Shown: positions 6,253 through 27,677, counted from the stretch's first letter. The stretch: DNA of 64,000 nucleotides from Dehalococcoidia bacterium (GCA_021731085.1 JAKFYB010000019.1:62001-126000); one strand, 5' to 3'. Notes: generated from the sequence alone by a model not told the origin. Numbers and translations are program-made.

Positions 6253-6327
6253 GCGGAAGTAGCTCAGCGGTAGAGCACGTCCTTGCCAAGGACGGGGTCG
6301 AGGGTTCGAATCCCTTCTTCCGCTCCA
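6253..6327 (+). tRNA. tRNA-Gly (GCC anticodon)
   Basis: The acceptor arm GCGGAAG (6253-6259) pairs with CTTCCGC (6317-6323). The anticodon loop TTGCCAA is closed by CCTT/AAGG-type pairing. The T-arm reads GAGGGTTCGAATCCC, and CCA is encoded at 6325-6327. The 3' part from the anticodon loop onward is duplicated exactly at 16938-16982, marking it as the attachment site of the island that follows. Confidence 0.97.
6283..6327 (+). repeat. attachment-site repeat, left copy (inside tRNA-Gly)
   Basis: The 45 bases from the anticodon loop to CCA are identical to 16938-16982. Identity stops immediately before the TTGCC of the loop and immediately after the encoded CCA. Confidence 0.8.
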
Positions 6328-6487: not shown

Positions 6488-7486
6488 ATGTGGAAACGGA
6501 TCCTCGACGAGGCGATGGACTGGGCCGTGCTGCCCGGATTCTCGAGCCTCGGTTACCGGGTGCGCGGGCAAATCCAGCCGCATGGGCCAATCGCGGTGGC
6601 GGGGCGCTCAGTGATGGTCACAGGCGCAAGCTCGGGGATCGGCGAGGCGGCCTGCACCGCGCTGGCGCGGCAAGGCGCCGCTGTTCACATGGTCGTCCGC
6701 AACCGCGATCGCGGGCTGCAGGCTCTCGAGCGGATAGCCACGGCGTCCGGCTCGGAGGCGATTGAACTTCACATCTGCGACATATCCAGCCTCGCCTCCG
6801 TTCGCGAGTTCGCCTCGGGCTTTAACGCATCGTGTGCGCCCCTGCACGTGCTCATAAACAATGCCGGCGTGCTCGCCGCAACGCGAACGCACACCGACGA
6901 AGGCTTCGAGCTCACGTTCGCAACCAATGTTCTTGGGCCGTTCCTGCTCACCGCGCTGCTATTGCGAGCGCTTCGGCGCTCCGCTTCATCGCGCGTGATC
7001 AATGTTTCGTCGGGCGGGATGTACACGGCTAGCATAGACCTCGACGACCTCCAGCTCGAACGTCGCGACTTCAGCGGTGCGCGGTTCTACGCCCACACTA
7101 AGCGCGCGGAAGTGATCCTGAGCGAGGAATGGGCGCGGAGGCTCGCAGCCGATGGCATCGCGGTGCATTCAACCCACCCGGGGTGGGTAGAGACAGCGGG
7201 CGTCTCTGCCGCGCTTCCCGGATTCAACCGGGTGATGGGGCCACTGCTCCGCGATCCCGCCGCCGGAGCCGATACGATCGTCTGGCTCGCCGGTGCCTCG
7301 GAGGCAGCGCAGAACAGCGGGGAGTTCTGGCACGATCGCCGCGTTCGGTCCAAGCACCGAGTTCCCTGGACTCGTGAAACCCCGGAGGAAAGAGTCCGGC
7401 TGTTCGCCATGTGCGAGAACCTCTGCGGTCTGCCACCGGGCGGCGCTACGAACCCAACGGCGAGTACCGACACCAAAGGAGAGTGA
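6488..7486 (+). CDS. SDR family NAD(P)-dependent oxidoreductase
   Basis: 332 residues. The cofactor motif TGASSGIG is at 45-52, with NNAGVL and the catalytic VSSGG / YAHTK (Tyr-x-x-x-Lys) after it. It resembles the human DHRS12-like group, where an N-terminal extension of about 35 residues precedes the Rossmann fold and a C-terminal extension (WTRETPEERVRLFAMCE) follows. It lies 3 bases before the SRPBCC gene, so the two are surely co-transcribed. In related light/photolyase clusters an SDR of this kind accompanies the lipid genes; the substrate is unknown. A GAGGA sequence abuts the ATG, so a start at 6515 is possible. Confidence 0.85.
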   Translation: MWKRILDEAMDWAVLPGFSSLGYRVRGQIQPHGPIAVAGRSVMVTGASSGIGEAACTALARQGAAVHMVVRNRDRGLQALERIATASGSEAIELHICDISSLASVREFASGFNASCAPLHVLINNAGVLAATRTHTDEGFELTFATNVLGPFLLTALLLRALRRSASSRVINVSSGGMYTASIDLDDLQLERRDFSGARFYAHTKRAEVILSEEWARRLAADGIAVHSTHPGWVETAGVSAALPGFNRVMGPLLRDPAAGADTIVWLAGASEAAQNSGEFWHDRRVRSKHRVPWTRETPEERVRLFAMCENLCGLPPGGATNPTASTDTKGE

Positions 7487-7489
7487 GGC

Positions 7490-7936
7490 ATGGCCCGCTA
7501 CCGTGACACGATCGCCAGTTCGCGGAGCGCCGAGGACGTGTTCGACTACATGGCGACGTTCTCGAACGTTTCCGAATGGGACCCAACTGTTAAGGAGGCC
7601 TACCCAGTCGATGGCAATTTCGCCGGGCCCGGCTCGCGATTCCACGTGTTGGTGCGTTTGCTCGGCCGAGAGATCGCGCTCGAGTACACGACCACATTCT
7701 ACGAGCGCCCGAAGCGAGTTGTCTTGCGTGCCGAGAACTCAAGCACGATCTCCGAGGACACGATCACCGTCGAGGCGACTCCCAATGGTTGTGAAATGAC
7801 GTACGACGCGCAGCTGACCTTGAAGGGCGCGCTGCGGATCATCGATCCTGTCTTCGGCCTAACGTTCAAGCGGCTCGGTGACAACGCGGCAGCCGGGCTG
7901 CGTCGCGAGCTCTCCGGTGGCGCCGGCACGAACTAG
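7490..7936 (+). CDS. SRPBCC family protein (START-like)
   Basis: 148 residues starting MARYRDTIASSRSAEDVFDYMATFSNVSEWDPTV, the usual opening of a polyketide-cyclase/dehydrase or START-like lipid-binding fold, and ending with the long C-terminal helix (KRLGDNAAAGLRREL). These proteins form a hydrophobic cavity and bind lipids or polyketides. Here it is coupled to the preceding SDR by a 3-base gap and has GGAGAG before its ATG. It converges on the lipid operon. A role in handling the lipid product is an inference from context. Confidence 0.85.
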   Translation: MARYRDTIASSRSAEDVFDYMATFSNVSEWDPTVKEAYPVDGNFAGPGSRFHVLVRLLGREIALEYTTTFYERPKRVVLRAENSSTISEDTITVEATPNGCEMTYDAQLTLKGALRIIDPVFGLTFKRLGDNAAAGLRRELSGGAGTN

Positions 7937-8016: not shown

Positions 8017-9282
8017 TCAGCCGACGGACGCTACCGGGATCGCAGGTTGCTCGGCAACGCGCGGCCGCCTTAAAACCGGCCCCTGCTTGTCGAAGACGAT
8101 TTGCAGATCGCCCGTGTTGCGCGTACGGAACCCGGCCTCGGATGCGGCAAGGTAGTACTCCCACATCCGAATGAATCGGTCATCGAACCCCATCGCGCGA
8201 ATAGCGGGGAGTTCCGAGAGGAACCGCTGTCGCCAGTGACGAAGCGTGATCGCGTAGTGGTCGCCTATGTCCTCCAGACGCGTGATGAGGAGGCTAGTGC
8301 GGTTCAGCGCCCGCTCGAGTTCCGCAATCGAAGGAAGCATCCCGCCGGGGAAGATGTACTTTTGCACCCAATTCACGCCGTCCCGCAATGCCTCGAACGA
8401 CCTGTCCGGTACCGTGATGACTTGCATCACCATGCGCCCGCCGGGAAGCAACGCGCGGTCGCAGGCTTCGAAGAAAGTCGGGAAATACTCGGATCCCACG
8501 GCCTCGAACATCTCGATCGAAACGATCTTGTCGTACACGCCGCTGATGTTCCGGTAGTCGCAGAACTGGACGTCGATGAGGGACGCAAGCCCGGCGTCGG
8601 AGATTCTCTCGCGCGCGAGTGCGAGTTGCTCTTGCGAGATCGTGAGGCAGGTCACACGGCAGCCGTAGCTCTGCGCGGCATAGATCGCGAACCCGCCCCA
8701 GCCACAGCCGATCTCCAGCACGTGATCATCCACCGCTAGATCCGCCTGACGACAAATCCTGCGATACTTTTCGCGTTGCGCGTCCGCGAGGCAGTCGTCG
8801 GGCGATGCGAAATAGGCGCAAGAGTACGTCATCGTCTCGTCGAGGAACAATGAGAAGAACTCATTGCCCAGGTCGTAGTGCGCGTGGATGTTGTTTTTCG
8901 CCCGGTCAGGCGTGTTTCGGTTAGATTGGTGAACTCGAAGATCGCGGAGGCGCGATGGCAGCGCGAGCCAGCGGCCATCAAACCGCACACTCCGTCGACT
9001 TTCGATGGCCAACACCAGGAGCCCCACGAGGTCGTCCGAGGACCAGAGCCCGTCGACATACGCCTCGCCAAACCCCACTTCGCCCTGAAGAAGAGCGCGG
9101 CGGAAGAATTCGTCACTATGGATCTCCATCGTCGCACGCGGTTCTCCTCCCGGGCGACCGAACGTTTTGATGCTTCCGCCCGGGAGGCGAGCGAGTAGCT
9201 CTCCTTCCTGCAGCGCGGACCCAATAGCAAGCACCGTCCGACGCGCCAATTTGTCCGCGATCCGCGCGGCCGTCGACTTCAC
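8017..9282 (-). CDS. cyclopropane-fatty-acyl-phospholipid synthase-like methyltransferase
   Basis: 421 residues, full length for the family. The N-terminal domain includes GEAYVDGLW. AHYDLGNEFFSLFLDETMTYSCAYF and the SAM site VLEIGCGWGGFAIYAA (188-203) follow, with VSIEMFEAVG and the C-terminal HYAITLRHWRQRF. CFA enzymes transfer a methylene from SAM to the double bond of membrane phospholipids; close relatives instead methylate unsaturated chains, including one step of furan fatty acid synthesis. The GTG start overlaps the stop of the DUF1365 gene (GTGA), so the two are translationally coupled. Confidence 0.92.
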   Translation of the reverse strand: MKSTAARIADKLARRTVLAIGSALQEGELLARLPGGSIKTFGRPGGEPRATMEIHSDEFFRRALLQGEVGFGEAYVDGLWSSDDLVGLLVLAIESRRSVRFDGRWLALPSRLRDLRVHQSNRNTPDRAKNNIHAHYDLGNEFFSLFLDETMTYSCAYFASPDDCLADAQREKYRRICRQADLAVDDHVLEIGCGWGGFAIYAAQSYGCRVTCLTISQEQLALARERISDAGLASLIDVQFCDYRNISGVYDKIVSIEMFEAVGSEYFPTFFEACDRALLPGGRMVMQVITVPDRSFEALRDGVNWVQKYIFPGGMLPSIAELERALNRTSLLITRLEDIGDHYAITLRHWRQRFLSELPAIRAMGFDDRFIRMWEYYLAASEAGFRTRNTGDLQIVFDKQGPVLRRPRVAEQPAIPVASVG

Positions 9283-10031
9283 CGCTTCACCGCCTTCCGC
9301 CGGTGCGGCCGGTAACGCTCGCCGCTAAGCCAGACCTTGAGCCCGTGCCAGTGAATCAGGCCAATCGTCCTCAATGTGATGAACGGGTAGCGAACCAGCA
9401 TGCGCCCGACATTCGCGTTTGTGAGTGTGCGTGGCTGGAGCTCGAGCTGCGCCTGGAAAAACATCTCCGATCCGTGGAACTCGTCGATGCGAATATCAAG
9501 CCTGCCCGACGGGTCTTCGCGCACCCGGAACTCGTAGCGGGCCTCCATGTCGATGAACGGAGAGACGTAGAAGTCCTTGTCGACCCGCGAAAAATAGACA
9601 CCGTCTTCATCCGGCAAACGTGCAAGGTCATAGATGTGTTGTTCACCGTGCGTGTTGTGCACCTCCGCCATCACGTGGCGCAGATCGCCCGCCGCAGAGT
9701 GGACAAGATAGAAACTGACGGGATTGAAGACGTACCCGAGGATGCGCGTGTTGGTCAGCAGCGATACACGTGCATCCTCCACGTCCACGCCGCACTCGGC
9801 CAGGTGGACGCGGACGTCCGTGCGCACGTCCGCGCGCCCTTCGCTGAAATGGTCGCGGTCCAAGAACGACATCACGTTGAAGCGGTTGTAGCTCAGCGGC
9901 GCGATGCGACGCGAAACTTCGGGCAATTCGTCAAGGTCGAAGTCACAGTAGTAGACACCGTAGGAGAATTCGTATGACGTTGGCGATGTCCTCCGATGGC
10001 GAACGTGGCCGGTAAACAGCTGGGATCTCAT
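9279..10031 (-). CDS. DUF1365 domain protein
   Basis: 250 residues that match DUF1365 along their length: SQLFTGHVRHRRTSPTSYEFSYGVYY, LLTNTRILGYVFNPVSFYLV, AEVHNTHGEQHIYDL and DKDFYVSPFIDMEARYEF. The family has no established enzyme activity but is almost always found between a flavin oxidoreductase and a CFA-like synthase, as here. The ATG overlaps the oxidoreductase stop (ATGA) and its own stop overlaps the CFA start. This suggests a three-protein unit acting on the same lipid. Confidence 0.9.
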   Translation of the reverse strand: MRSQLFTGHVRHRRTSPTSYEFSYGVYYCDFDLDELPEVSRRIAPLSYNRFNVMSFLDRDHFSEGRADVRTDVRVHLAECGVDVEDARVSLLTNTRILGYVFNPVSFYLVHSAAGDLRHVMAEVHNTHGEQHIYDLARLPDEDGVYFSRVDKDFYVSPFIDMEARYEFRVREDPSGRLDIRIDEFHGSEMFFQAQLELQPRTLTNANVGRMLVRYPFITLRTIGLIHWHGLKVWLSGERYRPHRRKAVKR

Positions 10032-11275
10032 GCCGGTACTCCCAATAACGCCGCCACCCTCACTCCAGATTGGAACCCGTCTTCGTGAAAGCCATAGCCC
10101 AGGTGAGCACCGGCATAGTAGGTGTGCCGCGTGCCGTTCAAGCTCGATAGCGCTTGTTGAGCCGCGAGCGTTTCGAATGAGTAGGCCGGATGCTCGTAGG
10201 CCAACTCGCGGATGACTGTAGCGGGTGCGACGGAGGCGTTGAGTGAGACGCAGTAGTCGACCGGTTCATCCAGTGCCTGCAGTCGGTTGAGATGGTAGGT
10301 CATTCCCAACACGGTTCCGCCGAGTCGGCAGTCGTCCGTTGCGTAGTTCCAGGAAGCGCGCGCAGCCGGCCGGTGCGGGAGCATCGCCGAGTCGGTGTGT
10401 AGAATCGCTCGGTTTACCGTATATGAGAATCCGCCGAGGGCACGCTTCTCCGCGTTCGACGGATCGGCAAGCAGCTTTAGCGCCTGGTCCGCATGGCAAG
10501 CAAGCACGACCTTGTCGAATCCGCGTTCGCGACCGTCGGCGAACGCAATTCGTACGCCTTCCGCGTCGCGCCAAACGGCTCGTACCGGCGTGGACAGCCG
10601 CACGCGACAGTCGAATGATGCCGTCAGCCGGCGAACGTACTCGCGCGAGCCGCCTCGAACGGTGCGCCACACAAACGCCGGTTGAAGGCCTATGATCCCG
10701 TGATTCTGCAAGAACGCCAGGAAATATCGCGCGGGCAGGTCACCGACCGCGGCCGGCGGGGTCGACCACACAGCCGACGCCAGCGGCACGATGAAATGAC
10801 GCACGAATTCCCCGCTGTATCCTCGGTCTTCTAGAAAGGCATCCAGTGTCGCCTGCTCGTAACTCCCCGTGCTCAACACGCGACGCGTATCGCGAAAGAA
10901 TCGCAGGATGTCCCATCCGAGACGCCAACGCGCCGAGCGCAGCACGTTCGATCGCTGGGCGAGCATGCCGCCCAGCCCGCGGCTGCTGTACTCAACGCGA
11001 CACGCGCGGCACCTCACGCTGATCGACATGTCCCCTACATTAGTTGCTACGCCGAGTTCGTGGAGTAGTCCGCTGAAACCTGGATAGGTGTGCTCGTTGT
11101 AGACGATGAAACCCGTATCAAGTCCAAGGTCACGACCGTCGGCATCGACGTTGACGGTGTTGGCATGCCCGCCGGCGTAGTCGCTACGCTCGAACACCTC
11201 GATCTCGTGCGCGCGGTTCAGAAGGTATGCCGCTGCGAGGCCCGATATGCCCCCTCCGACAACAGCGATCTTCAC
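10028..11275 (-). CDS. FAD-dependent oxidoreductase (NAD/FAD-binding protein of the CFA cluster)
   Basis: 415 residues. The dinucleotide-binding motif G7-G-G-I-S-G12 follows VKIAVVG, and the second strand ends EVFERSDYAGGHANT. The body resembles amine oxidase/desaturase-type flavoproteins (COG2907-like), with YAGAHLGYGFHEDG near the C-terminus as part of the FAD site. Its partner genes are DUF1365 and CFA synthase. In Rhodobacter a similar set sits in the photo-oxidative-stress regulon and related genes act in furan fatty acid synthesis; the match here is by content only. GTG at 11275 is chosen because it opens the Rossmann fold; an in-frame start at 11344 would add 23 basic residues. Confidence 0.85.
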   Translation of the reverse strand: MKIAVVGGGISGLAAAYLLNRAHEIEVFERSDYAGGHANTVNVDADGRDLGLDTGFIVYNEHTYPGFSGLLHELGVATNVGDMSISVRCRACRVEYSSRGLGGMLAQRSNVLRSARWRLGWDILRFFRDTRRVLSTGSYEQATLDAFLEDRGYSGEFVRHFIVPLASAVWSTPPAAVGDLPARYFLAFLQNHGIIGLQPAFVWRTVRGGSREYVRRLTASFDCRVRLSTPVRAVWRDAEGVRIAFADGRERGFDKVVLACHADQALKLLADPSNAEKRALGGFSYTVNRAILHTDSAMLPHRPAARASWNYATDDCRLGGTVLGMTYHLNRLQALDEPVDYCVSLNASVAPATVIRELAYEHPAYSFETLAAQQALSSLNGTRHTYYAGAHLGYGFHEDGFQSGVRVAALLGVPA

Positions 11276-11428
11276 TGTGCCACCCCGACGAGAACTACGC
11301 GCGACCGCGCCCACAACCGCCCGTGCAATCGGCCCAACTGACACACGAGAACGCGCGGCACAACTTCACCTTCACCGCCGCCCAACGCTGCGCTCGGGAG
11401 GCGCTCAAACGCGTGAATCGGCGCGCGA

Positions 11429-12517
11429 TTAACTGGCTTCAAGGCGAAAGTCCAACTGGCGGGCGACCCATGAACGCATCAGGCCTCGCACGCGCTCGTA
11501 GACTCCCCCGTAAAGAAGGAATCCGCTGTCTTCACGTTGGTGTTCGCGCTTGAGGATGTACGATAGTCCGACCCGTTCCAGTAGCGCTTCGCCCAGTAGG
11601 CCGTAGCCCGGTCCGCCTAGTCGATCAAGCGCGGTACGGACCACCGCGGGAGATACAGGTCCCAGCGTCATGCCTCGTGCCGCGGCGATCTCGACAAGCA
11701 ATGCGCCTGAGCGGCGCGTGTCCGTCATCGTCTCGTGTATCAGCCTGACGAGATCACGGGTAATTCGCTCGAAATCTGCACCCATCAATGGCATCCACCG
11801 CCCGACGGAGTGCTGGAGATCCGGTGCAAGCGTGTTACCGGGCATCTCGAACTTGAGCAGCGCTTCGGCAACGAACTTCATCAGGCGCGGATCAGCCTCG
11901 ATCTGCAGCGCCGTCATATCGCGATACCAGACCGTGTGGAGCGTCTCCCGCCGCTTGATGCGCGTAGCCATATACGCAGCGGTCGGCGACGCGTGGCGCA
12001 ACATCGCGGCGATAAGTCCATGCCAGTTGTCTGTAAGATACTCCTGGACAATCCCGAACGTCGTCACGTGCACCGGGGTATCGCCTCCCCGGTGTGTGTA
12101 GTCGATCTCCTGCGTGTGGCGAATCTCTCGATCGAGTTGTGCTTCACTAAACCCAAGGCTCATAAGGATGAACTTGTACGGCGCGTGGTGCGTCAATTCG
12201 TCGGGTACCCAGACGCGCTCGTTGAACCGTGCGAGCCACGGAGCGTTGAAACGATCCGCGCGTTCCGCAAACGCATCACCGTAGGTCTCAGTCGCACATT
12301 CTGTTAGCAAGGCGAGCTTCAAGATGCCTACGAAATCGTCTTCAGACAGGCCATCGGGCAGTGTGCCCAGAACCGATCGCACGTCGAGCTGCTCCTGCAG
12401 TGCGCGGAACTCTTCGACATCAATGGTGTCGCCGGGCTGCGACTCTATCCGGCTGACCAATCCGTCTAGCTTCGTCAGGGCGTCCGAATTGAGAGCGTAT
12501 TGCTGACCTGTAGGCAT
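11429..12517 (-). CDS. acyl-ACP desaturase-like diiron protein
   Basis: 362 residues. WVPDELTHHAPYKFILMSLG and, about 80 residues later, RRETLHTVWYRDM supply two E-x-x-H iron-ligand motifs in the ferritin-like four-helix arrangement of soluble stearoyl-ACP desaturases. VTTFGIVQEYLTDNWHGLIAAML lies between them. The plant/mycobacterial consensus EENRH is changed to DELTHH in the first motif. Desaturation of an acyl chain would provide the double bond used by the CFA-like methyltransferase downstream. ATG at 12517 is preferred over a start 66 bases upstream because the extension is unlike the family. Gaps to merR (101 bases) and to the FAD gene (153 bases) leave operon status open. Confidence 0.75.
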   Translation of the reverse strand: MPTGQQYALNSDALTKLDGLVSRIESQPGDTIDVEEFRALQEQLDVRSVLGTLPDGLSEDDFVGILKLALLTECATETYGDAFAERADRFNAPWLARFNERVWVPDELTHHAPYKFILMSLGFSEAQLDREIRHTQEIDYTHRGGDTPVHVTTFGIVQEYLTDNWHGLIAAMLRHASPTAAYMATRIKRRETLHTVWYRDMTALQIEADPRLMKFVAEALLKFEMPGNTLAPDLQHSVGRWMPLMGADFERITRDLVRLIHETMTDTRRSGALLVEIAAARGMTLGPVSPAVVRTALDRLGGPGYGLLGEALLERVGLSYILKREHQREDSGFLLYGGVYERVRGLMRSWVARQLDFRLEAS

Positions 12518-12618
12518 CGACGTTGCTCTTTCAACTTCAGTGATTGTAGTTCGCGCTCGAGAGCAGAGTCGATCACCCCGCACTAATTTGCGATTTAACT
12601 AGGCCCTCTACCCGTTGG

Positions 12619-13491
12619 CTACGGCGCCATGATCTCGTCCGCGGCAGAGACCGGATCGCCGACGAGCCATTCCGCACCACACGCTTCTGCAAGGGACTGA
12701 CTTGCGCCGGCGCCCGCGATCGCGACACGCGCCACTTCCGTGATCTTGTGCAAGGCTGTCCTCATATCTGCCAAACGACCGGCATCTGCCGCCGCGATGA
12801 CCACGATCGCCGGAGTGATGTTCTCTACTGCTCCGACGAGATCAGCAGCGGGGGTCCGGGCACCCAGGTAGGTGACTCGCCACCCGCGGTTTCCCAGCGC
12901 AATTCCCAGCATCATCAGAGGAATGTCGTGCTCCTCGTCCGGCGGGCAGGCGAGGATTGCCCGGGGGCCGATACCGTCCTCCCACCCACGGGCCAGCCCA
13001 CCGAGCCGTTGGCGGATGAGATTGCTCGCGAAGTGCTCTTGCGCGATTGAGAGCAATCCTCGCTCCCAAAGTTGGCCGATCTCGCGGAGTGCCGGCAGAA
13101 ACAGCGACCGCATGATCGTTTCGGCGTCAAACTCCATCAGGAGCTGGTCGATTGAGCGTTGCGCCTCGGCCTCATCGTAGGAAAACAGCGCCAAACTAAA
13201 CGCGCTCGCACGCTGATCGAACGGCGAAGGCCCAAATCCGGGCGCTTCGACAACTGCAACTGGCCCCCGCAGGACTTGCTGCGCCGCTTGACTTGCCGAC
13301 GCACCTTGAGCCAAGAGAAGCTTCATCGCGCGAATCCGTGACACATCGGAAGCTGGGTACAGCCTGAACCCTCCGTCAGAGCGCTGCGGCGAGAAAAGGT
13401 GATACCGGCGCTCCCAAGCCCGGAGCACCTCCGGACTGACACCGGTCCGCCGACTGAGCTCACCGATTCGAAGAAGGGCATCGTGCGTCAT
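12619..13491 (-). CDS. MerR-type regulator with B12-binding domain (CarH/LitR-like)
   Basis: 290 residues. The N-terminal winged helix reads RIGELSRRTGVSPEVLRAWERRYHLFSPQRSDGGFRLY. A helical B12-cap domain holds LWERGLLSIAQEHFAS, matching the W-x9-EH motif of CarH photoreceptors. The Rossmann-type domain begins PDEEHDIPLMMLG, with His in the place of the lower cobalt ligand. In CarH, adenosylcobalamin keeps the DNA-bound tetramer together in the dark and light breaks it. The residue after the motif Trp is Glu, not the His that forms the light-state bis-His adduct in Thermus CarH. It diverges from the photolyase gene across a 102-bp promoter region, its likely target. Confidence 0.88.
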   Translation of the reverse strand: MTHDALLRIGELSRRTGVSPEVLRAWERRYHLFSPQRSDGGFRLYPASDVSRIRAMKLLLAQGASASQAAQQVLRGPVAVVEAPGFGPSPFDQRASAFSLALFSYDEAEAQRSIDQLLMEFDAETIMRSLFLPALREIGQLWERGLLSIAQEHFASNLIRQRLGGLARGWEDGIGPRAILACPPDEEHDIPLMMLGIALGNRGWRVTYLGARTPAADLVGAVENITPAIVVIAAADAGRLADMRTALHKITEVARVAIAGAGASQSLAEACGAEWLVGDPVSAADEIMAP

Positions 13492-13543
13492 TCGCGCATG
13501 ATACAGACTTTGTCCAAGGATATCTAGGCATAGGTTTGACTGA

Positions 13544-13576
13544 TTGACCAAAACTCTGTACCGTCCCTATACAGAG
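13544..13576 (+). promoter_or_regulatory. photolyase promoter with palindromic operator over the -10
   Basis: TTGACC (13544-13549), 18-bp spacer, TATACA (13568-13573). The inverted repeat CTCTGTA (13554-13560) / TACAGAG (13570-13576) covers the spacer and the -10 box, the place where a MerR/CarH-type repressor would block RNA polymerase. A partial copy, TACAGA at 13502-13507, sits next to the regulator's own start, consistent with autoregulation. Confidence 0.6.
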
Positions 13577-13593
13577 GTAGTAGGGGTCACATC

Positions 13594-15105
13594 ATGAGTG
13601 AGTCGCGGAGTGCCCTAGCTCTATCGTCGGTGCCTGCGCTTCGGGTCGGGTCGCTGAACCGCCACCCGCCGGCGCCCAACGGGAACTACATCCTGTACTG
13701 GATGACGGCGTTCAGGCGAACGCGCCACAACTTCGCTTTGCAGCGCGCTGTTGAATGGGCCAACGAACTTCAGAGGCCGCTGATCGTCCTCGAGGCGCTG
13801 CGCGTGGACTACCCCTGGGCTTCCGACCGGTTTCATCGCTTCATCCTCGACGGGATGGCAAGCAATCGGGCGGCGTTCGCGCCGACCAATGCGACCTACT
13901 ATCCCTACGCTGAGCACGAACCGGGTGCCGGAAAGGGGCTAGTGCGTGCCCTGGCGTCTCAAGCATGTGTGGTCGTCACGGACGACTACCCCGCGTTCTT
14001 CCTTCCTCGCGCCGCAAGCGCCGCCGCCGCGAGCGTCGATGTCCTGAAGGAAGCTGTGGACTCAAACGGCATCCACGCCCTTCGTGCACCGGGCAAGGAG
14101 TTCGCGACCGCGCATGCTTTTCGGCGATGGCTGCAGAGCAACATCTCCGAAGACCTCGAGACGTTCCCACTTGCGGATCCGCTGTCGGACCTGCCGTCCA
14201 CGCGACGTGCCGAAGTGCCCGATGCGATAACGACGCGCTGGCCGATGGCGGACCTCGAGCCAGCAGTTACTAACAAACTGATCCGAGCGCTTCCACTGGA
14301 CCACTCCGTCGCCCCGGTCGATCAGATGGGTGGCGCTCGTGCTGCTGGCGCCCGACTCAGCAACTTCATTGACCGACTCGCGCGATACGATGCCGAGCGC
14401 AACCATCCGGACAGCGGTGGTGGAAGCGGATTGTCACCCTATCTGCACTTCGGTCACATTTCTTCGCACGAAATATTCCGGGCCGTCGCTGATGCAGAGA
14501 GCTGGTCCGTTGCCGACATATCCGGCCGACGTGATGGCGGCCGCAGCGGTTTCTGGGGCATGAGTGATCCCGCTGAGGCGTTCCTCGACGAGTTGATTAC
14601 GTGGCGCGAGCTGGGGTTCAACTTCTGCGCTCACCGGAACGACTACGACCACTACGGGTCGCTGCCGGAGTGGTCGCGCCGGACGCTAGAAGAACGAGCG
14701 TCAGATCCGCGGCCTGAGCAGTACAGTCTTGAGGAGCTCGAGCAGGCCTGCACAGCCGATTCGCTCTGGAACGCCGCGCAGACGCAACTTCTGCGTGACG
14801 GCGTGATTCATAACTATCTGCGCATGTTGTGGGGCAAGCGGATCCTCGAATGGACGCAGTCACCGCGGGAAGCGCTCGATCGAATGATCCACCTCAACAA
14901 CAAATACGCATTGGACGGGCGCGACCCGAATTCGTACAGCGGTGTCTTCTGGGTGCTCGGTCGCTATGATCGCGCTTGGGGTCCACGCCGCCCGATCTTC
15001 GGCACAGTCCGTTACATGAGTTCGGCAAATACCGCTCGGAAGCTCCGCGTGAGGGATTACATGAACCGGTATGCACCGCGGAGCCAGCAAAGCATGTCCC
15101 GGTGA
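13594..15105 (+). CDS. phr: class II CPD photolyase (deoxyribodipyrimidine photo-lyase)
   Basis: 503 residues. Class II landmarks appear in order: YILYWMTAFRRTRHNFALQ at the N-terminus, SPYLHFGHIS, ELITWRELGFNFC, LLRDGVIHNYLRMLWGKRILEW, NNKYALDGRDPNSYSG and WVLGRYDRAWGPRRPIFG. The enzyme binds FAD in the C-terminal helical domain and uses blue light to split cyclobutane pyrimidine dimers. The ATG follows an AGGTAGTAGGGG stretch. Its stop overlaps the GTG of the next gene by four bases (GTGA), so the two are translationally coupled. Divergent placement from the B12 regulator predicts light induction. Confidence 0.95.
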   Translation: MSESRSALALSSVPALRVGSLNRHPPAPNGNYILYWMTAFRRTRHNFALQRAVEWANELQRPLIVLEALRVDYPWASDRFHRFILDGMASNRAAFAPTNATYYPYAEHEPGAGKGLVRALASQACVVVTDDYPAFFLPRAASAAAASVDVLKEAVDSNGIHALRAPGKEFATAHAFRRWLQSNISEDLETFPLADPLSDLPSTRRAEVPDAITTRWPMADLEPAVTNKLIRALPLDHSVAPVDQMGGARAAGARLSNFIDRLARYDAERNHPDSGGGSGLSPYLHFGHISSHEIFRAVADAESWSVADISGRRDGGRSGFWGMSDPAEAFLDELITWRELGFNFCAHRNDYDHYGSLPEWSRRTLEERASDPRPEQYSLEELEQACTADSLWNAAQTQLLRDGVIHNYLRMLWGKRILEWTQSPREALDRMIHLNNKYALDGRDPNSYSGVFWVLGRYDRAWGPRRPIFGTVRYMSSANTARKLRVRDYMNRYAPRSQQSMSR

Positions 15106-16544
15106 ATATCTTGGTCGCCGGTGCAACCGGATTTGTCGGGTCACATCTCGTCCCCAGTTTGCTAGAGGACGGGCACCACGTGCGCTGCATGTCTCGCAAT
15201 CCCGACCGCGCAGGCCCCCGACTGCCTAGTGGCGTCGAGATCGTGCCGGGAGACGTTCACGATGCGGCATCGCTCGCGACTGCACTGAACGGGATGGAGG
15301 CGGCGTTCTATCTCGTTCACTCGATGGAAAGCGGCGAGTTTGATTTTGAGGAACGCGACCGAGATGCCGCGCGTCAATTCGCGTCTGCGGCCGATCGCGC
15401 CGGCATCATGCGCATCTTCTTCCTCGGCGGGCTTGGCGACGAGGCATCACAGCTCAGCGCGCACCTGAGGAGCCGCCAGGAGGTGGGTGTGCTGCTCCGA
15501 TCCGGTTCCACACCCGTTACCGAATTGCGTGCCGGTCTGATCATCGGTCCGGGCTCGGCGTCCTACGTCATGCTTCAGCAGCTTGTCGAGCGCCTGCCAG
15601 TGATGATTACACCACGGTGGGTCGACACCCAGACGCAACCAATCGCCATCGCAGATGTCATCCGATACCTGGTCGCCGCATTGAACGACTCGTCTGCCGA
15701 AGACGCAACATTCGAAATCGGCGGTCCCGAAGTGATGACCTACCGATCGATGATGATGCGCTACGCCCGGGCGCGCGGGTTGAGACGAATTATGCTGCCG
15801 GTGCCTGTACTCACGCCGCGCCTGTCCTCGTACTGGGTCGATGTAATCACAGATGTCTCAGCGTCGCTGGCCCGACCACTGATCGAAGGCCTGCGCAGCG
15901 AGATGATCGTTCGCAACGATTCTGCAGCACGCCAATTCGGCACGGCGGCGACGGGATTCGAGGAGGCGCTTGCTGTTGCGGAGAAGGCGCGCGTCAGTCG
16001 CCGCGAAGCGCCGCTCGTGTGGCTCGTCCGGCTGCCACGGCACCTAAGCGAGTTCGCAAATCGCCGATTCCTCCCGCCGGTGTTGTCCGATGAGCAGGTG
16101 CGCCGATCGCAGGTAGATGCTGCGGAGCTTTGGCGAAGCGCTGTGGAAATTGGTGGGCGCCGCGGCTATCCGACGATGGATCCATTGTGGCAGCTACGCG
16201 GCTGGCTGGACCGCTTCCTCGGTGGTCCAGGCCTGAATCGCTCAGGCCCGACAGCCAGTGACGTGCGCGTGGGTGACCGGCTTGATTTCTGGGAGGTGGT
16301 GGAGCTTGAGCCGGGCCATCGCTTGCGAATGCGGGCGTTGATGAAGGTTCCAGGCGAGGCCGAACTTGAGATCGCGGTGCATCAAGAGGAAGGAGCGACC
16401 ATCCTCGTACAGAAGGCGCGCTTCACCCCGCGTGGAATCGCGGGCCGCTTGTACTGGTGGTCACTCTACCCTGTACATGCGCTCATCTTCTCGCGTATGG
16501 CGCGGCGCATCGTTGAGCGAGCCAAGAACCGGCGTCAGTCATGA
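15102..16544 (+). CDS. NAD(P)-binding SDR fused to DUF2867
   Basis: 480 residues. The N-terminal atypical SDR/NmrA-like domain (about 1-270) opens VNILVAGATGFVGSHLVPSLLEDGHHVRCMSRNP, with FYLVHSM and FLGGLGDE. The C-terminal 150 residues, beginning around the GDRLDFWEVVELEPGHRLRMRA segment, match DUF2867. The fused architecture is recurrent beside bacterial light-induced photolyase genes; its substrate is unknown. The GTG start overlaps the photolyase stop codon. An in-frame upstream start inside the photolyase is rejected because the Rossmann motif begins right at this GTG. Confidence 0.88.
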   Translation: MNILVAGATGFVGSHLVPSLLEDGHHVRCMSRNPDRAGPRLPSGVEIVPGDVHDAASLATALNGMEAAFYLVHSMESGEFDFEERDRDAARQFASAADRAGIMRIFFLGGLGDEASQLSAHLRSRQEVGVLLRSGSTPVTELRAGLIIGPGSASYVMLQQLVERLPVMITPRWVDTQTQPIAIADVIRYLVAALNDSSAEDATFEIGGPEVMTYRSMMMRYARARGLRRIMLPVPVLTPRLSSYWVDVITDVSASLARPLIEGLRSEMIVRNDSAARQFGTAATGFEEALAVAEKARVSRREAPLVWLVRLPRHLSEFANRRFLPPVLSDEQVRRSQVDAAELWRSAVEIGGRRGYPTMDPLWQLRGWLDRFLGGPGLNRSGPTASDVRVGDRLDFWEVVELEPGHRLRMRALMKVPGEAELEIAVHQEEGATILVQKARFTPRGIAGRLYWWSLYPVHALIFSRMARRIVERAKNRRQS

Positions 16545-19183: not shown

Positions 19184-20701
19184 TCAACCTCCGAGGAGAC
19201 CTTCCTGGGCTGCGTGGACGCTGGCTTCTGTCCGGGAGGCGACGCCCATCTTGCCGAGGATGTTGGAGACGTGCTTGCCTACCGTAAACACGCTGATGCC
19301 GAGATCGGTCGCGATCTGCTTGTCTCCTGCCCCGCGCGCTACCAGGTCCAGAACGGTGAATTCGCGCACCGTGAGATTGTAGGGATTGCGCAAGTCGACG
19401 CGGCGCTCCGCCTCGACTTCCAGTTCGTCACGAACATTCCGACGGTCTTCTTCCTTCGTCATCCAATCCGCAGCGGTTATGTCTCGCACGAGTATCACGG
19501 CCCGATCGGCACCGGCGGGGGCCAGGCGCGCTTCGTACACGCGATCCTCAGGGTCATCGCCTCTTCTATATCGTAGACCCTGCGTCGTCTGCGTCTCGAA
19601 CACCAACGCGAGGCGGCTGAGCACGAGCCCAACGACGTCGTAAGGGAAGATCTCGCTGACGTGACGGCCGACGGGTTGTTCGGCCGTGAACGGCAGCCCT
19701 GATCCAGTCGCAGGCTTGTGATCGAGGATCCGGCCATCCCCGCCGACATGGACGATCGAGTCCGGGATTGCTTCGAGAAGAAACTGCTGACGTGCGGCGA
19801 GATCTTGAGCAGCAAGTTGAGCTGTGCGCTGAGCTGTGACGTCGCGTCCCATGGTCTCGTACGCGACTACTTGACCAGCTTCGTTTCGAATCGCGATACG
19901 ACGACCGTCAATCCAGAGTGTTTCCCCATTCTTAGTGATATAGCGCCACAGCATCGAACGATCCTGGTCGCCGGCAATCACACGCTGAAGCTCGTCGCGT
20001 TCATCCGGGTGCACCATACGAAGCAGGAGCATGGGATCGGCATAGAACTCGTCGGTGCTGTATTGCGTGATGCGTTCGAATGATGGGCTGACGTATTCGA
20101 CGGCTGGTGTTGGCAAGATGCGGTAGTGAAGGATGATGTCTTCGCTGCGCTCCGAAAACATGCGCAGAAGCTCGCTCTGTTCGCGGATTTGGCGTTCAGC
20201 CTGCATGCGTTCGATCTCGGCGCCGGCACGAGCCGCGACGAGTCGCATGATGGCCTCCGCCGGAAGCGCGGCATTCAGGCGCTGCTCGTCGCCAATGCCA
20301 AGGAAGCCATTCGGCCGCCCCGTCGATCCGTACACCGGGACCGCAAGGAAGCTGCCGAGCGCAAGCATCTCGAGCATCGGATCGCACGGAAACAACTGTC
20401 GTACCTTGCCAGGGTGATGGACAGGCGCGCCGTTGCGTGTCGCGCCGCCCGCGCTGTCCGCCGCTAGAAATGCGCTGGTGAGCCCTTGTTCCTGAGCTGG
20501 CCAACAGGCCACGACACTGACGTGCTCTCCACCCTCGAAAAACTCGCAGATAAAGGCACTACTTGCTTCGAGGGCATCCGCGAGGTGCTCGACGCTGGTC
20601 GAGAAGTAGTCGGCGCCAACGACGGACGCCGTAGCCGAAATGAGCGAGAACAGCGTTCCTTCGATGTGCTCCTTCTGATCCCCAGCAGACTTCGAGGCCA
20701 C
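19184..20701 (-). CDS. GAF-PAS-PAS-LuxR transcriptional regulator
   Basis: 505 residues. An N-terminal GAF-like domain (about 15-165) ends SFLAVPVYGSTGRPNGFLGIGDEQR. A short coiled coil (ERMQAERQIREQSELLRMF) follows, then two PAS domains (about 175-300 and 305-415; the first ends WIDGRRIAIRNEAGQVVAYETMGRDVT). The C-terminal LuxR/NarL helix-turn-helix reads NLTVREFTVLDLVARGAGDKQIATDLGISVFTVGKHVSNILGKM. It has no histidine kinase domain, so it is a one-component sensor-regulator. It diverges from the membrane/SHOCT gene at 20883 and is the only regulator in this region, so it probably controls the neighbouring envelope genes. The start is GTG with AGGA upstream. Confidence 0.85.
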   Translation of the reverse strand: MASKSAGDQKEHIEGTLFSLISATASVVGADYFSTSVEHLADALEASSAFICEFFEGGEHVSVVACWPAQEQGLTSAFLAADSAGGATRNGAPVHHPGKVRQLFPCDPMLEMLALGSFLAVPVYGSTGRPNGFLGIGDEQRLNAALPAEAIMRLVAARAGAEIERMQAERQIREQSELLRMFSERSEDIILHYRILPTPAVEYVSPSFERITQYSTDEFYADPMLLLRMVHPDERDELQRVIAGDQDRSMLWRYITKNGETLWIDGRRIAIRNEAGQVVAYETMGRDVTAQRTAQLAAQDLAARQQFLLEAIPDSIVHVGGDGRILDHKPATGSGLPFTAEQPVGRHVSEIFPYDVVGLVLSRLALVFETQTTQGLRYRRGDDPEDRVYEARLAPAGADRAVILVRDITAADWMTKEEDRRNVRDELEVEAERRVDLRNPYNLTVREFTVLDLVARGAGDKQIATDLGISVFTVGKHVSNILGKMGVASRTEASVHAAQEGLLGG

Positions 20702-23377: not shown

Positions 23378-23671
23378 ATGTGTCTGTTTCTTGTGACGTT
23401 GTTCGGCGGTCCGCGCATCGGTGGATTGCTCTGGTGGCTGTTTTACCCGGGGCGCTGGGAATCCGCGTTCAAGGACAACTGGTTCTGGCCAGTGCTCGGA
23501 CTAATCTTTTTGCCCTGGACGACGATCATGTTCGTCGCGGTCGCGCCATTCGGTAACGTCAGCGGCTGGGATTGGCTCTGGCTGGGCTTCGGGTTCATGG
23601 CGGACTTCATGTCGATCGCAAGTGGCGGCTACGGTGGTCGCAACCGCTACAGCACAAGCCCGGGCTACTAG
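23378..23671 (+). CDS. small membrane protein, tryptophan rich
   Basis: 97 residues with two hydrophobic stretches (about 1-25 and 36-55) and a third weaker one around 65-80. It is rich in Trp, Phe and Gly (LLWWLFYPGRWESAFKDNWFWP) and has a glycine/tyrosine-rich tail. GGAGGTGAAGT precedes the ATG. It resembles short conserved membrane proteins of actinobacteria, but I cannot name a family. It sits 49 bases before the first sulfatase, in the same orientation. Confidence 0.65.
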   Translation: MCLFLVTLFGGPRIGGLLWWLFYPGRWESAFKDNWFWPVLGLIFLPWTTIMFVAVAPFGNVSGWDWLWLGFGFMADFMSIASGGYGGRNRYSTSPGY

Positions 23672-23720
23672 GCGGCGTCTGCAGCCGCTAACGACATCAC
23701 GACGAAGCAAGCGGAGAGAG

Positions 23721-26090
23721 ATGATGACCACGCAAGAACGAGCAGCAGGACGAGACCATCTGCCTATCGCCGATCGAGACGCGGCAGTATCCGTCACGTA
23801 TGACGCGAAGGATCCTGCCACGTCGTTTCCGCCGATCAAGCCGCTGCGTCCACCGGAGGGCGCGCCGAACGTACTGATCGTCCTGATCGACGACGCAGGA
23901 TTCGGGTCGTCGAGCGCGTTTGGCGGACCCTGCCAGACACCAAATGCTGAACGGCTGGCGGAGCGCGGCCTGAAGCTCAACCGCTTTCACACGACCGCTC
24001 TCTGTTCGCCGACTCGCCAGGCGCTGCTGACGGGACGCAATCATCACTCCGTCGGCATGGGCGGCATCACGGAGATCGCGACGTCCGCGCCCGGCTACAA
24101 CTCGATTCGGCCGAACACGTGCGCTCCGTTGGCGGAGACGCTGAAGCTCAACGGCTACTCGACGGCGCAGTTCGGTAAGTGCCACGAAGTGCCAGTGTGG
24201 GAGACGAGCCCGATGGGGCCGTTCAGCGCCTGGCCGACGGGCAGCGGATTCGAGCACTTCTATGGGTTCATCGGCGGCGAGACGAACCAGTGGGCGCCGG
24301 CAATCTATCGCGACACTGTGCCGGTCGAGCCCGATCGTACACCGGAAGAGGGCTACCACTTCACGGAGGACATGACGGATCAGGCGATCCAGTGGGCGCG
24401 ACAGCAGAAGGCGCTGATGCCGGACAAGCCGTTCTTCATGTACTACGCGCCGGGCGCGACGCACGCACCGCACCACGTCGCACCGGAGTGGAGCGAGAAG
24501 TACAAGGGCAAGTTCGACCAGGGCTGGGACAAACTTCGCGAAGAGACGTTCGCGCGGCAGAAGCAGCTGGGTGTCATTCCGCAGGACGCGGAACTGACCG
24601 CGCGCGCGCCCGAAATCCCCGGTTGGGATGAGATGCCCGATGACCTCAAGCCGGTGCTCGCGCGCCAGATGGAGGTGTACGCGGGCTTCATGGAGCACAC
24701 GGACCACCACATCGGACGGCTGTTCGATGCGCTTGAAGACCTCGGCATCATGGACGACACGCTGGTGTACTACATCGTCGGCGACAACGGCGCGTCTGGC
24801 GAAGGCACGCCGACCGGCTGCTTCAACGAAATGGTCGTGTTGAACGGCGGATTCGGCCTGGAGACCGTCGACTTCATGCGCAGCAAGATCGACGACTTCG
24901 GCACGCCAAAGGCGTACAACCACTATGCCGTCGGGTGGGCGCACGCGATGGACACGCCATACCAGTGGACGAAGCAGATAGCGTCGCACTGGGGTGGCAC
25001 GCGCAACGGCGCGATCGTGTCGTGGCCGAATGGGATCAAGTCGAAGGGCGAAGTGCGATCACAGTTCTCGCACGTGATCGACATCGCGCCGACGATCCTG
25101 GAGGCGGCCGGGCTGCCGGAGCCGACGAGCGTGAACGGCGTGCAGCAGCGTCCGATCGAGGGCACGAGCATGCTGTATGCCTTCGACGACGCGAAAGCCG
25201 ACGAGCGCCGAACGGTGCAGTACTTCGAGATGTTCTGCAACCGTGGGATCTACCACAACGGCTGGACGGCGGTGACTCGGCACTCGATTCCCTGGGTCGG
25301 GACGGCGATGCCCGCGTTCGACGACGACGTTTGGGAGCTGTACGCGCCCGATGACTGGACACAGTCGCGCAACCTGGCGGCGCAGCAGCCGGACAAGCTA
25401 CGCGAACTGCGGCGACAGTTCCTGCTTGAAGCCGCCAGGTACAACGTGTTTCCGCTGGACGACCGTCGGTTCGAGCGATTCAATCCAGATCAGGCCGGAC
25501 GTCCACAGCTCATCCACGGGTCAACGCAGATGCTCTTCGGAGGTATGGGACGGCTGACCGAGAATTCGGTGATCCCAATCAAGAACAAGTCATTCTCGAT
25601 CAGTGGTGAGATCGTTGTGCCGCAAGGTGGGGCGAACGGCGTCATCATCGCGCAGGGCGGGTCATTTGGTGGCTGGGCGCTGTACCTGCATGAAGGCCGG
25701 CCGGCCTTCTGCTACAACCTGTTCGGGTTGCAGCAGTTCAAGACGTACGGAAAGGACCCCGTGCCTGCTGGAGAGCACCAGGTGCGTATGGAATTCACCT
25801 ACGCAGGCGGTGGTCTCGGCAAGGGTGGCGACGTGAAGCTGTTTGTCGACGGTGCAGAGGTAGGTTCGGGCCATGTCGATGCGACCGTGCCGATGGTATT
25901 CTCGGCCGACGAGACGACGGACGTGGGGAATGACAGCGCAACGCCGGTGAGTGACGACTATACGCCGAAGACGAGCGAGTTCACGGGGCGGGTGCGCTGG
26001 GTGCAGATCGACATCGACGAGAAGGCCGAGGATCTGGACCACATGATCTCAGCGGATGAGCGCTGGCGCATCGCGATGGCACGTCAGTAG
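23721..26090 (+). CDS. arylsulfatase (AtsA-like)
   Basis: 789 residues. NVLIVLIDDAGFG carries metal ligands Asp57 and Asp58. The formylglycine motif is C95-S-P-T-R99 followed by QALLTGR. GKCHEVPVWE, YYAPGATHAPHH and DNGAS complete the alkaline-phosphatase-superfamily active site. The C-terminal 180 residues (from about FSISGEIVVPQGGANG) look like a concanavalin-type beta-sandwich. Length and layout match mycobacterial AtsA-type sulfatases, which hydrolyse aryl or alkyl sulfate esters. No signal peptide is seen. Adjacent ATG codons at 23721 and 23724 are both possible; GGAG lies upstream. Confidence 0.93.
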   Translation: MMTTQERAAGRDHLPIADRDAAVSVTYDAKDPATSFPPIKPLRPPEGAPNVLIVLIDDAGFGSSSAFGGPCQTPNAERLAERGLKLNRFHTTALCSPTRQALLTGRNHHSVGMGGITEIATSAPGYNSIRPNTCAPLAETLKLNGYSTAQFGKCHEVPVWETSPMGPFSAWPTGSGFEHFYGFIGGETNQWAPAIYRDTVPVEPDRTPEEGYHFTEDMTDQAIQWARQQKALMPDKPFFMYYAPGATHAPHHVAPEWSEKYKGKFDQGWDKLREETFARQKQLGVIPQDAELTARAPEIPGWDEMPDDLKPVLARQMEVYAGFMEHTDHHIGRLFDALEDLGIMDDTLVYYIVGDNGASGEGTPTGCFNEMVVLNGGFGLETVDFMRSKIDDFGTPKAYNHYAVGWAHAMDTPYQWTKQIASHWGGTRNGAIVSWPNGIKSKGEVRSQFSHVIDIAPTILEAAGLPEPTSVNGVQQRPIEGTSMLYAFDDAKADERRTVQYFEMFCNRGIYHNGWTAVTRHSIPWVGTAMPAFDDDVWELYAPDDWTQSRNLAAQQPDKLRELRRQFLLEAARYNVFPLDDRRFERFNPDQAGRPQLIHGSTQMLFGGMGRLTENSVIPIKNKSFSISGEIVVPQGGANGVIIAQGGSFGGWALYLHEGRPAFCYNLFGLQQFKTYGKDPVPAGEHQVRMEFTYAGGGLGKGGDVKLFVDGAEVGSGHVDATVPMVFSADETTDVGNDSATPVSDDYTPKTSEFTGRVRWVQIDIDEKAEDLDHMISADERWRIAMARQ

Positions 26091-26174
26091 CCTGACGAGT
26101 AACCTACGTCAAAGGGCAAGCAAAAGCCGAACGATCAGACGATGACGGCGGCCGAATCCTGCACGGAGGAATGA

Positions 26175-27677
26175 ATGGCAGAGAAGAAGCCGAACATCGT
26201 GGTGTTCTGGGGTGATGACATCGGTATCGCCAACCTGAGCTGCTATTCGGGTGGCCTGATGGGATATCGCACTCCCAACATCGACCGCGTCGCGGCCGAG
26301 GGCATGCGATTCACGGACTACTACGGCGAGCAGAGTTGCACTGCTGGGCGCTCCGCTTTCCTCACCGGCCAAAGTGTCTTCCGCACGGGGCTGTCGAAGG
26401 TGGGGCTTCCCGGGTCTGACCTTGGCCTGAAACCGGAAGACCCTACTATCGCCGAGTTGCTTAAGCCGCATGGCTATGCGACGGCGCAGTACGGCAAGAA
26501 TCACCTCGGTGACAAAGACGAGTTTCTTCCGACGATGCACGGATTCGACGAGTTCTTCGGGAACTTGTATCACCTGAACGCAGAAGAGGAGCCGGAACAT
26601 CCGGACTATCCCAAGCCCGAAGACTTCCCTAATTTCCGGAAGAACTTTGGTCCGCGAGGTGTCCTGAAGTGCAAAGCCAACAGTGACGGTACGCAGACTA
26701 TTGAAGACACGGGGCCGTTGACCAGAAAGCGGATGGAGACAATCGACGACGAGATCGTCGAGGGTGCCTGTGACTTCATTCGCCGACAGCATGCGGCTGG
26801 CGTGCCGTTCTTCATCTGGGTCAACACGACACACATGCACTTCCGAACGCACGTGAAGGAGGAAAGCCGCGGCCAATCCGGGCGCTGGCAGTCGGAGTAC
26901 CACGATGTGATGATCGACCACGATCGCGCCGTTGGCGTCGTTCTCGATTTGCTCGACGAGCTAGGTATCCAGAACGACACACTGTTCATGTATGGCACCG
27001 ACAACGGTGTGCACATGAATTCCTGGCCCGACGGCGGCATGACGCCGTTCCGCAACGAGAAGAACTCGAACTGGGAAGGTGCGTTTCGCACGCCTTGTGT
27101 TGTGCGCTGGCCAGGGAAAATCCCTGCTGGCGTGGTGTCCAATGACATCGTCAGTCACATGGACTGGCTTCCCACGTTCGTTGCGATGGCAGGTGATCCC
27201 GATGTTGGCGAGTCGCTCCTCAAGGGTCACGAGGCAGCCGGCAAGACCTTCAAGGTGCACCTCGATGGTTACAACCTGCTGCCATTCCTGACGACCGAAG
27301 GCACGCCGAGTCCACGGGTCTCATTCTTCTACTTCTCGGACGAGGGCGACCTCATGGCGGTGCGATACGACAACTGGAAGTTGATGTTCCTGGAGCAGAG
27401 AGTCGCCGGGACGTTGGACATCTGGTTGGAACCATTCGTCCAGCTCCGCGCGCCCAAAATCTTCAATCTCCGCACAGACCCGTTCGAGCGCGCAAGTATC
27501 ACATCGAACACGTACTACGACTGGATGATTGATCACATATTCCTGCTTGTTCCTGCTCAAGCCATCGTGGGAGAGTTCCTGGGGACATTCGCGGCGTACC
27601 CGCCACGCCAGAAGGCAGCCAGCTTCACCGTCGACCAGGTGCTGGAGAAACTTACGGCTGGCATCAGCAGCAACTGA
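26175..27677 (+). CDS. sulfatase, second copy
   Basis: 500 residues. PNIVVFWGDDIG supplies Asp14 and Asp15, and the formylglycine site is C55-T-A-G-R59 followed by SAFLTGQ, a C-x-A-x-R variant rather than C-x-P-x-R. GKNHLGDKDEFLPT, TTHMHF and YGTDNGVHMNSWPDGG provide the other metal and sulfate contacts. It is shorter than its neighbour and only distantly related to it, so a different sulfate ester is likely. No export signal. GGAGG precedes the ATG. Followed after 7 bases by the HAD phosphatase gene. Confidence 0.93.
   Translation: MAEKKPNIVVFWGDDIGIANLSCYSGGLMGYRTPNIDRVAAEGMRFTDYYGEQSCTAGRSAFLTGQSVFRTGLSKVGLPGSDLGLKPEDPTIAELLKPHGYATAQYGKNHLGDKDEFLPTMHGFDEFFGNLYHLNAEEEPEHPDYPKPEDFPNFRKNFGPRGVLKCKANSDGTQTIEDTGPLTRKRMETIDDEIVEGACDFIRRQHAAGVPFFIWVNTTHMHFRTHVKEESRGQSGRWQSEYHDVMIDHDRAVGVVLDLLDELGIQNDTLFMYGTDNGVHMNSWPDGGMTPFRNEKNSNWEGAFRTPCVVRWPGKIPAGVVSNDIVSHMDWLPTFVAMAGDPDVGESLLKGHEAAGKTFKVHLDGYNLLPFLTTEGTPSPRVSFFYFSDEGDLMAVRYDNWKLMFLEQRVAGTLDIWLEPFVQLRAPKIFNLRTDPFERASITSNTYYDWMIDHIFLLVPAQAIVGEFLGTFAAYPPRQKAASFTVDQVLEKLTAGISSN

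Follow-up and report, generated by a model that had tools for sequence, protein, structure and literature searches.

The window analysed here is a 64,000-nucleotide stretch from the genome of an uncultured Dehalococcoidia (Chloroflexota) bacterium (GCA_021731085.1, JAKFYB010000019.1:62001-126000), and it carries a gene cluster in which homologues of the furan fatty acid enzymes UfaD, UfaO and UfaM stand beside a gene for a soluble diiron protein resembling acyl-ACP (ACP, acyl carrier protein) desaturases and beside a CarH-like, B12-binding MerR regulator. The features of the cluster, in window coordinates, are:

6488-7486, plus strand: SDR oxidoreductase, probable extra member of the module (adh_short)
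7490-7936, plus strand: SRPBCC (Polyketide_cyc2) protein, probable extra member of the module (Pfam)
8017-9282, minus strand: UfaM-type acyl-phospholipid methyltransferase of the CFA/CMAS family (CMAS, 296 bits)
9279-10031, minus strand: UfaO-type DUF1365 protein, predicted furan-forming oxygenase (DUF1365, 239 bits)
10028-11275, minus strand: UfaD-type FAD oxidoreductase, predicted acyl-chain desaturase (Amino_oxidase, Pfam)
11429-12517, minus strand: soluble diiron acyl-ACP desaturase-like protein (FA_desaturase_2, PF03405)
12619-13491, minus strand: CarH-like regulator with MerR and two B12-binding domains (Pfam; alignment with 5c8d)
13492-13593, no strand assigned: divergent promoter region with a candidate dyad, between the MerR-B12 and photolyase genes
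13594-15105, plus strand: class II-type cyclobutane pyrimidine dimer photolyase (TIGR00591, E=4e-101)
15102-16544, plus strand: NAD(P)-binding and DUF2867 protein (Pfam; overlaps the photolyase stop)

The minus-strand genes are transcribed in the order MerR-B12 (13491-12619, with the ATG at 13491 chosen as start), diiron desaturase, FAD (GTG at 11275 chosen), DUF1365 and CFA-like, the last three being joined by 4-bp stop/start overlaps. The photolyase and DUF2867 genes form a plus-strand pair divergent from the MerR-B12 gene, while the SDR and SRPBCC genes (6488-7936, plus strand) converge on the 3' end of the CFA-like gene. All the genes named in the first-pass annotation are present where it had placed them; the DUF2867, SDR and SRPBCC proteins went unnamed there. 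The SDR is 41-42% identical to the SDR immediately upstream of FAD-DUF1365 in relatives of family f5, and the SRPBCC protein has 31% homologues within the FAD-DUF1365-photolyase operons of genomes G084 and G147. Because homologues of both sit inside the same operons of relatives, sequence comparison indicates that the module probably starts at 6488. The DUF2867 protein has 40-45% homologues in the sister modules of G084, G147, G108 and G158. The photolyase scores 339 bits against TIGR00591, under the curated cut-off of 550, and we call it class II-like because this model is by far the best.

To interpret the three overlapping genes, we compared them with the characterised furan fatty acid pathway. 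In Rhodobacter sphaeroides, RSP1091 (FAD) is UfaD, RSP1090 (DUF1365) is UfaO and the S-adenosylmethionine (SAM) methylase is UfaM; together they convert cis-vaccenoyl phospholipid to a methylated furan fatty acid, with the ring oxygen coming from O2 (PMC7380195). The FAD-DUF1365-CFA order in the window is that of RPA2571-2570-2569 of R. palustris, which are ufaD-ufaO-ufaM (PMC7380195). As references we used four plasmid loci (Azospirillum, Paracoccus, Salinivibrio, Rhodococcus) assigned as Ufa-type by gene order; those of Azospirillum and Paracoccus adjoin an extracytoplasmic function sigma/anti-sigma pair, and that of Salinivibrio adjoins MerR-phrB. Over nearly full length, the window proteins are 39-44% (FAD), 33-35% (DUF1365) and 40-42% (CFA) identical to those of the four loci. 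It is thus well supported by sequence that the three are homologues of UfaD, UfaO and UfaM, and the suggestion in the first-pass annotation of a desaturating, methylating and oxidising module tied to furan fatty acids is well supported by homology, gene order and active-site residues.

The methyltransferase was compared with E. coli CFA synthase, in which His266 is a bicarbonate ligand (PMC11387697). The alignment places the window sequence SIEMFEAVG opposite SVGMFEHVG of the E. coli enzyme and a Gln opposite His266, while the other two bicarbonate ligands, Glu239 and Tyr317, are kept. The EMFEAVG-type motif (with small variations) and the Gln are common to the proteobacterial and Rhodococcus copies beside FAD-DUF1365, and desaturase-paired copies share this signature with one exception (G318, which has the Gln but GMFEHVG). 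In the tree, the window protein groups with homologues adjacent to UfaD/UfaO, apart from E. coli CFA, and it scores under the curated cut-offs of the cyclopropane-synthase models. An ordinary cyclopropane synthase fed by the desaturase, yielding cyclopropane lipids under light stress, would be compatible with membership of the CMAS family, with the 36% alignment to E. coli CFA, and with the cyclic acids shown by the strain when Halomonas UfaM was over-expressed in E. coli (PMC12089945). However, the replacement of His266 by Gln and of GMFEHVG by EMFEAVG, both as in UfaM-position proteins, the missed cut-offs and the tree placement make this very unlikely, and we rejected plain cyclopropane synthase as the identity of the protein on the active-site residues and the tree.

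We then examined the diiron protein, which scores 27.9 bits against PF03405 (gathering cut-off 22.7). Its predicted ligands E73, E107xxH110, E159 and E191xxH194 are invariant in 17 homologues that are 30-67% identical to it. The structure model (pLDDT 82.6) finds its best PDB match in 4v0j (Z 21.9, 271 residues, 3.5 Å); plant stearoyl-ACP desaturases give Z 19-22 over ~270 residues, M. tuberculosis DesA2 gives 16.3 and R2lox ~16. A phmmer search against PDB sequences returned nothing useful. The ligand pattern and the fold matches assign the fold and metal site to the acyl-ACP desaturase type, from which acyl-ACP desaturation activity is inferred. Other diiron families (R2lox, ribonucleotide reductase R2, azoxy synthase) were rejected, with Z ~16 or less against 21.9. 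The protein shares its fold and diiron ligand pattern with the plant and DesA2 enzymes, but is only 13-17% identical to them, and its linkage is to genes of the Ufa type, not to those of bulk fatty-acid synthesis. The same genome has a further PF03405 desaturase-type gene at another locus (L132, contig C16:25248-25571), ~31% identical to the one in the window over part of its length.

The linkage of this desaturase to Ufa-type genes recurs. Close homologues of the window proteins were found in Dehalococcoidia/Chloroflexota assemblies, and we surveyed 394 Dehalococcoidia-class genomes (desaturase threshold E<=1e-20). The desaturase is present in 24 of them and DUF1365 in 26, with both in 12 (G000, G005, G084, G095, G147, G172, G192, G233, G264, G357, G363 and G411, spread over eight families), where 1.6 would be expected (hypergeometric P ~7e-10, uncorrected for kinship); the two genes lie <=4 kb apart in 10 of these 12. 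Five of the genomes (G095, G192, G264, G363, G411), from four families, carry a cassette of desaturase, UfaM, a second CFA-family methyltransferase, UfaD and UfaO, and two further genomes have it rearranged. The five-gene cassettes lie at:

L048:6947-12401
L113:6984-12347
L115:8697-14025
L117:8542-13916
L118:8059-13345

The second methyltransferase groups in the tree with a Shinella homologue that adjoins ChrR and DUF1365; it could, from its sequence, be a FufM-like dimethyl-furan enzyme, the FufM sequence itself lying outside the comparison. Because the same partners recur across many Dehalococcoidia genomes, the gene grouping is beyond chance, and the desaturase is a new recurring partner of Ufa-type genes. 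No desaturase homologue was present on any plasmid record searched.

In many other genomes, mainly of SAR202 type and with no DUF1365 detected, the desaturase gene precedes a UfaM-type gene by 65-102 bp. Since the desaturase-UfaM pair occurs in this way, the data point to two sub-modules, desaturase with UfaM and UfaD with UfaO, merged into one operon in the window. At L043:9609-10944, a desaturase is followed by only the last ~50 residues of a UfaM-type protein, in two frames, and this copy is likely decayed or mis-assembled. The solitary pairs would also suit a methyl-branched (or methyl-branched diene) lipid as the product in place of a furan; the desaturase and UfaM would make the branched alkene, and the FAD and DUF1365 proteins would catalyse a different redox step, such as the saturation that gives 10-methyl acids in actinobacteria. 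The occurrence of the FAD-DUF1365-CFA triad in Rhodococcus, a genus with relatives noted for 10-methyl fatty acids, would fit as well. We nevertheless consider this outcome unlikely for the window: tested UfaD and UfaO homologues give first the diene and then the furan (PMC7380195), and both proteins are present here, in the tested order.

The regulator can be aligned over its whole length with CarH of T. thermophilus (5c8d). It has the Wx9EH motif at residue 142 and an ExH with the axial His, while the last Gly of ExHxxG is Pro; its score against the NCBIfam CarH equivalog is 151 bits, and since the cut-off of 400 is not reached, we describe it as CarH-like only. It shares with the CarH proteins of Thermus thermophilus and Myxococcus xanthus the combination of MerR and B12 domains, the Wx9EH motif and the axial His; the best-known targets of CarH are carotenoid genes, whereas the neighbours of the window regulator are lipid-modification and photolyase genes. 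The host genome (3.58 Mb, 52 contigs) encodes a CobA/BtuR-type adenosyltransferase, and a search of it for a PduO-type enzyme found none. MerR-B12 proteins with the Wx9EH motif also stand beside FAD-DUF1365 in G233 and G018. In G084 and G147, an SRPBCC-FAD-DUF1365-SDR-SRPBCC-DCC1-class I photolyase-DUF2867 set is divergent from a regulator that has B12 domains, Wx9EH and a C-terminal HTH_3. Proteins with a Wx9EH-bearing B12 domain and C-terminal HTH_3, and no N-terminal MerR domain, occur near or divergent from lipid/photolyase genes at L047:13132-14004, L045:12651-13523, L119:1-798, L113:14560-15378 and L118:5050-5868, and represent a second B12-sensor architecture.

Light control of the cluster by the B12 sensor is plausible from these sequences, and we favour it because independent B12 regulators stand beside the same gene set. 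The competing explanation is that the cluster has the described composition but is not under the control of light, the MerR protein sensing B12 or another signal, or controlling the photolyase only. The operator search gave no demonstrated operator: the dyad AACTCTGTA-N9-TACAGAGGT at 13552-13578 is a candidate whose arm length is within chance by a rough count, and a search with an 8-base spacer (the dyad's own is 9) gave no second copy. In addition, the gaps of 101 bp before the desaturase gene and 153 bp before the FAD gene could hold promoters of their own, and the window protein has Pro for the final Gly of ExHxxG. On the other hand, the protein retains Wx9EH and the axial His, the photolyase gene is divergently transcribed, and the B12 regulators of sister modules carry these motifs too, so that we regard the absence of light control as rather unlikely.

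How much of this arrangement was known? The ufaD-O-M pathway is already known, as are light- or singlet-oxygen-regulated clusters with photolyase. The Ufa genes of R. palustris (RPA2571-2569) and R. sphaeroides share with the window three homologous enzymes and a photo-oxidative-stress setting (PMC7380195), but in R. sphaeroides their level rises when ChrR is lost and their substrate is ordinary cis-vaccenate, in an operon described without a desaturase gene, whereas in the window a CarH-like regulator is accompanied by a diiron acyl-ACP desaturase. The class II LitR cluster of Pseudomonas (phrB, SDR, FAD oxidoreductase, ufaM) is light-inducible (PMC9758184), and in it and in Salinivibrio (L108) a MerR-type regulator, photolyase, SDR, FAD, DUF1365 and CFA genes stand together as in the window. 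The Salinivibrio regulator is without Wx9EH, consistent with Pseudomonas class II LitR, while the window regulator has it; both clusters are without a desaturase, and the window adds the desaturase, a B12-type regulator and a class II-type photolyase. Because such MerR-photolyase-SDR-ufaD-O-M clusters are known, the light-linked core is not new. The first-pass annotation had thought the combination unusual: this holds for the desaturase, whose association is unusual yet recurrent, and fails for the regulator-photolyase-SDR-FAD-UfaM part, known in Pseudomonas (PMC9758184). What is new is the dedicated acyl-ACP desaturase partner, the B12-type regulator on such a cluster, and the spread across Dehalococcoidia; a literature search found no paper tying SAR202 or CarH to furan fatty acids and acyl-ACP desaturases.

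Taken together, we think it on balance probable that the window holds a light-linked membrane-lipid operon of the Ufa kind with its own substrate-making desaturase. In the likeliest reading, UfaM methylates a cis double bond that the desaturase has introduced, and the operon would therefore span the whole route from saturated acyl chain to furan fatty acid. As judged from its fold and ligands, the diiron desaturase would place a cis double bond in acyl-ACP. The acyl chain would then be moved to phospholipid, where homology and active-site residues predict that the UfaM-type enzyme methylates at the double bond with SAM, giving a methyl-branched trans-alkene and not a cyclopropane. By analogy with the characterised homologues, the UfaD-type flavoprotein would introduce a second, conjugated double bond, and the UfaO-type DUF1365 protein would insert oxygen from O2 and close the furan ring. 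The CarH-like B12 repressor probably keeps both the operon and the divergent photolyase-DUF2867 pair silent in darkness and lifts this block upon illumination, and formation of the protective lipid would thus coincide with DNA repair. More tentatively, and at odds somewhat below even, we suggest a self-contained O2-dependent furan pathway (desaturase, UfaM, UfaD, UfaO) across uncultured Dehalococcoidia, including SAR202-type members, switched by MerR-B12 and B12-HTH_3 photoreceptors, to which some lineages add a second methyltransferase, perhaps for dimethyl furans.

Several observations weigh against this interpretation. The DUF1365 protein is only ~34% identical to its reference-locus counterparts, and the reference loci were identified by gene order, not by tested activity. 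The co-occurrence statistics leave phylogeny out, and the single dyad from the operator search is not distinguishable from chance. DUF1365 is missing from most SAR202-type genomes carrying the desaturase-UfaM pair, so that this route cannot yield a furan there. In family f5, UfaD/UfaO-like genes are arranged as SDR-FAD-DUF1365, in some of its genomes close to MerR-B12, class I photolyase or heliorhodopsin genes, and our searches detected no UfaM or (save in G233) desaturase in this family; its UfaD/UfaO-like proteins may therefore serve another substrate. SDR-FAD-DUF1365 operons with MerR-B12 and heliorhodopsin nearby, and no UfaM or desaturase gene seen, lie at L049:4029-12657 and L120:3030-16296, the latter with a class I photolyase nearby as well.

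The surroundings of the module do not bear out its earlier description as lying on an island: the GC content of its genes (0.595-0.657) is near that of the window (0.631), and the scan of flanking genes revealed no mobility gene in the set it covered. There is, however, a tRNA-Gly at 6253-6327. The flanking genes of relatives are non-syntenic, so that their comparison showed neither insertion nor loss of the module. Next to the module, 19184-20701 seems to encode a multi-domain sensor with a LuxR-type helix-turn-helix at its end, which has a 39% paralogue on contig C28; 18196-19056 encodes a predicted lipoprotein containing degenerate AAIPEVKTAIVGTAVA-type repeats, and two sulfatase-family genes lie side by side at 23622-27674.

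Furan fatty acids were reportedly once found in Dehalococcoides (White, in 2005, is said to have described them), and with this gene set it becomes testable who within the class has this ability and by what route. For a large uncultured group, our analysis predicts membrane lipids of the furan or methyl-branched type, which are considered protective against oxidants, and it identifies the genes that would make them. The desaturase is a bacterial enzyme whose product could be assayed in combination with an already known downstream pathway, and the analysis suggests that light sensing through vitamin B12 may govern membrane lipids, beyond carotenoids.

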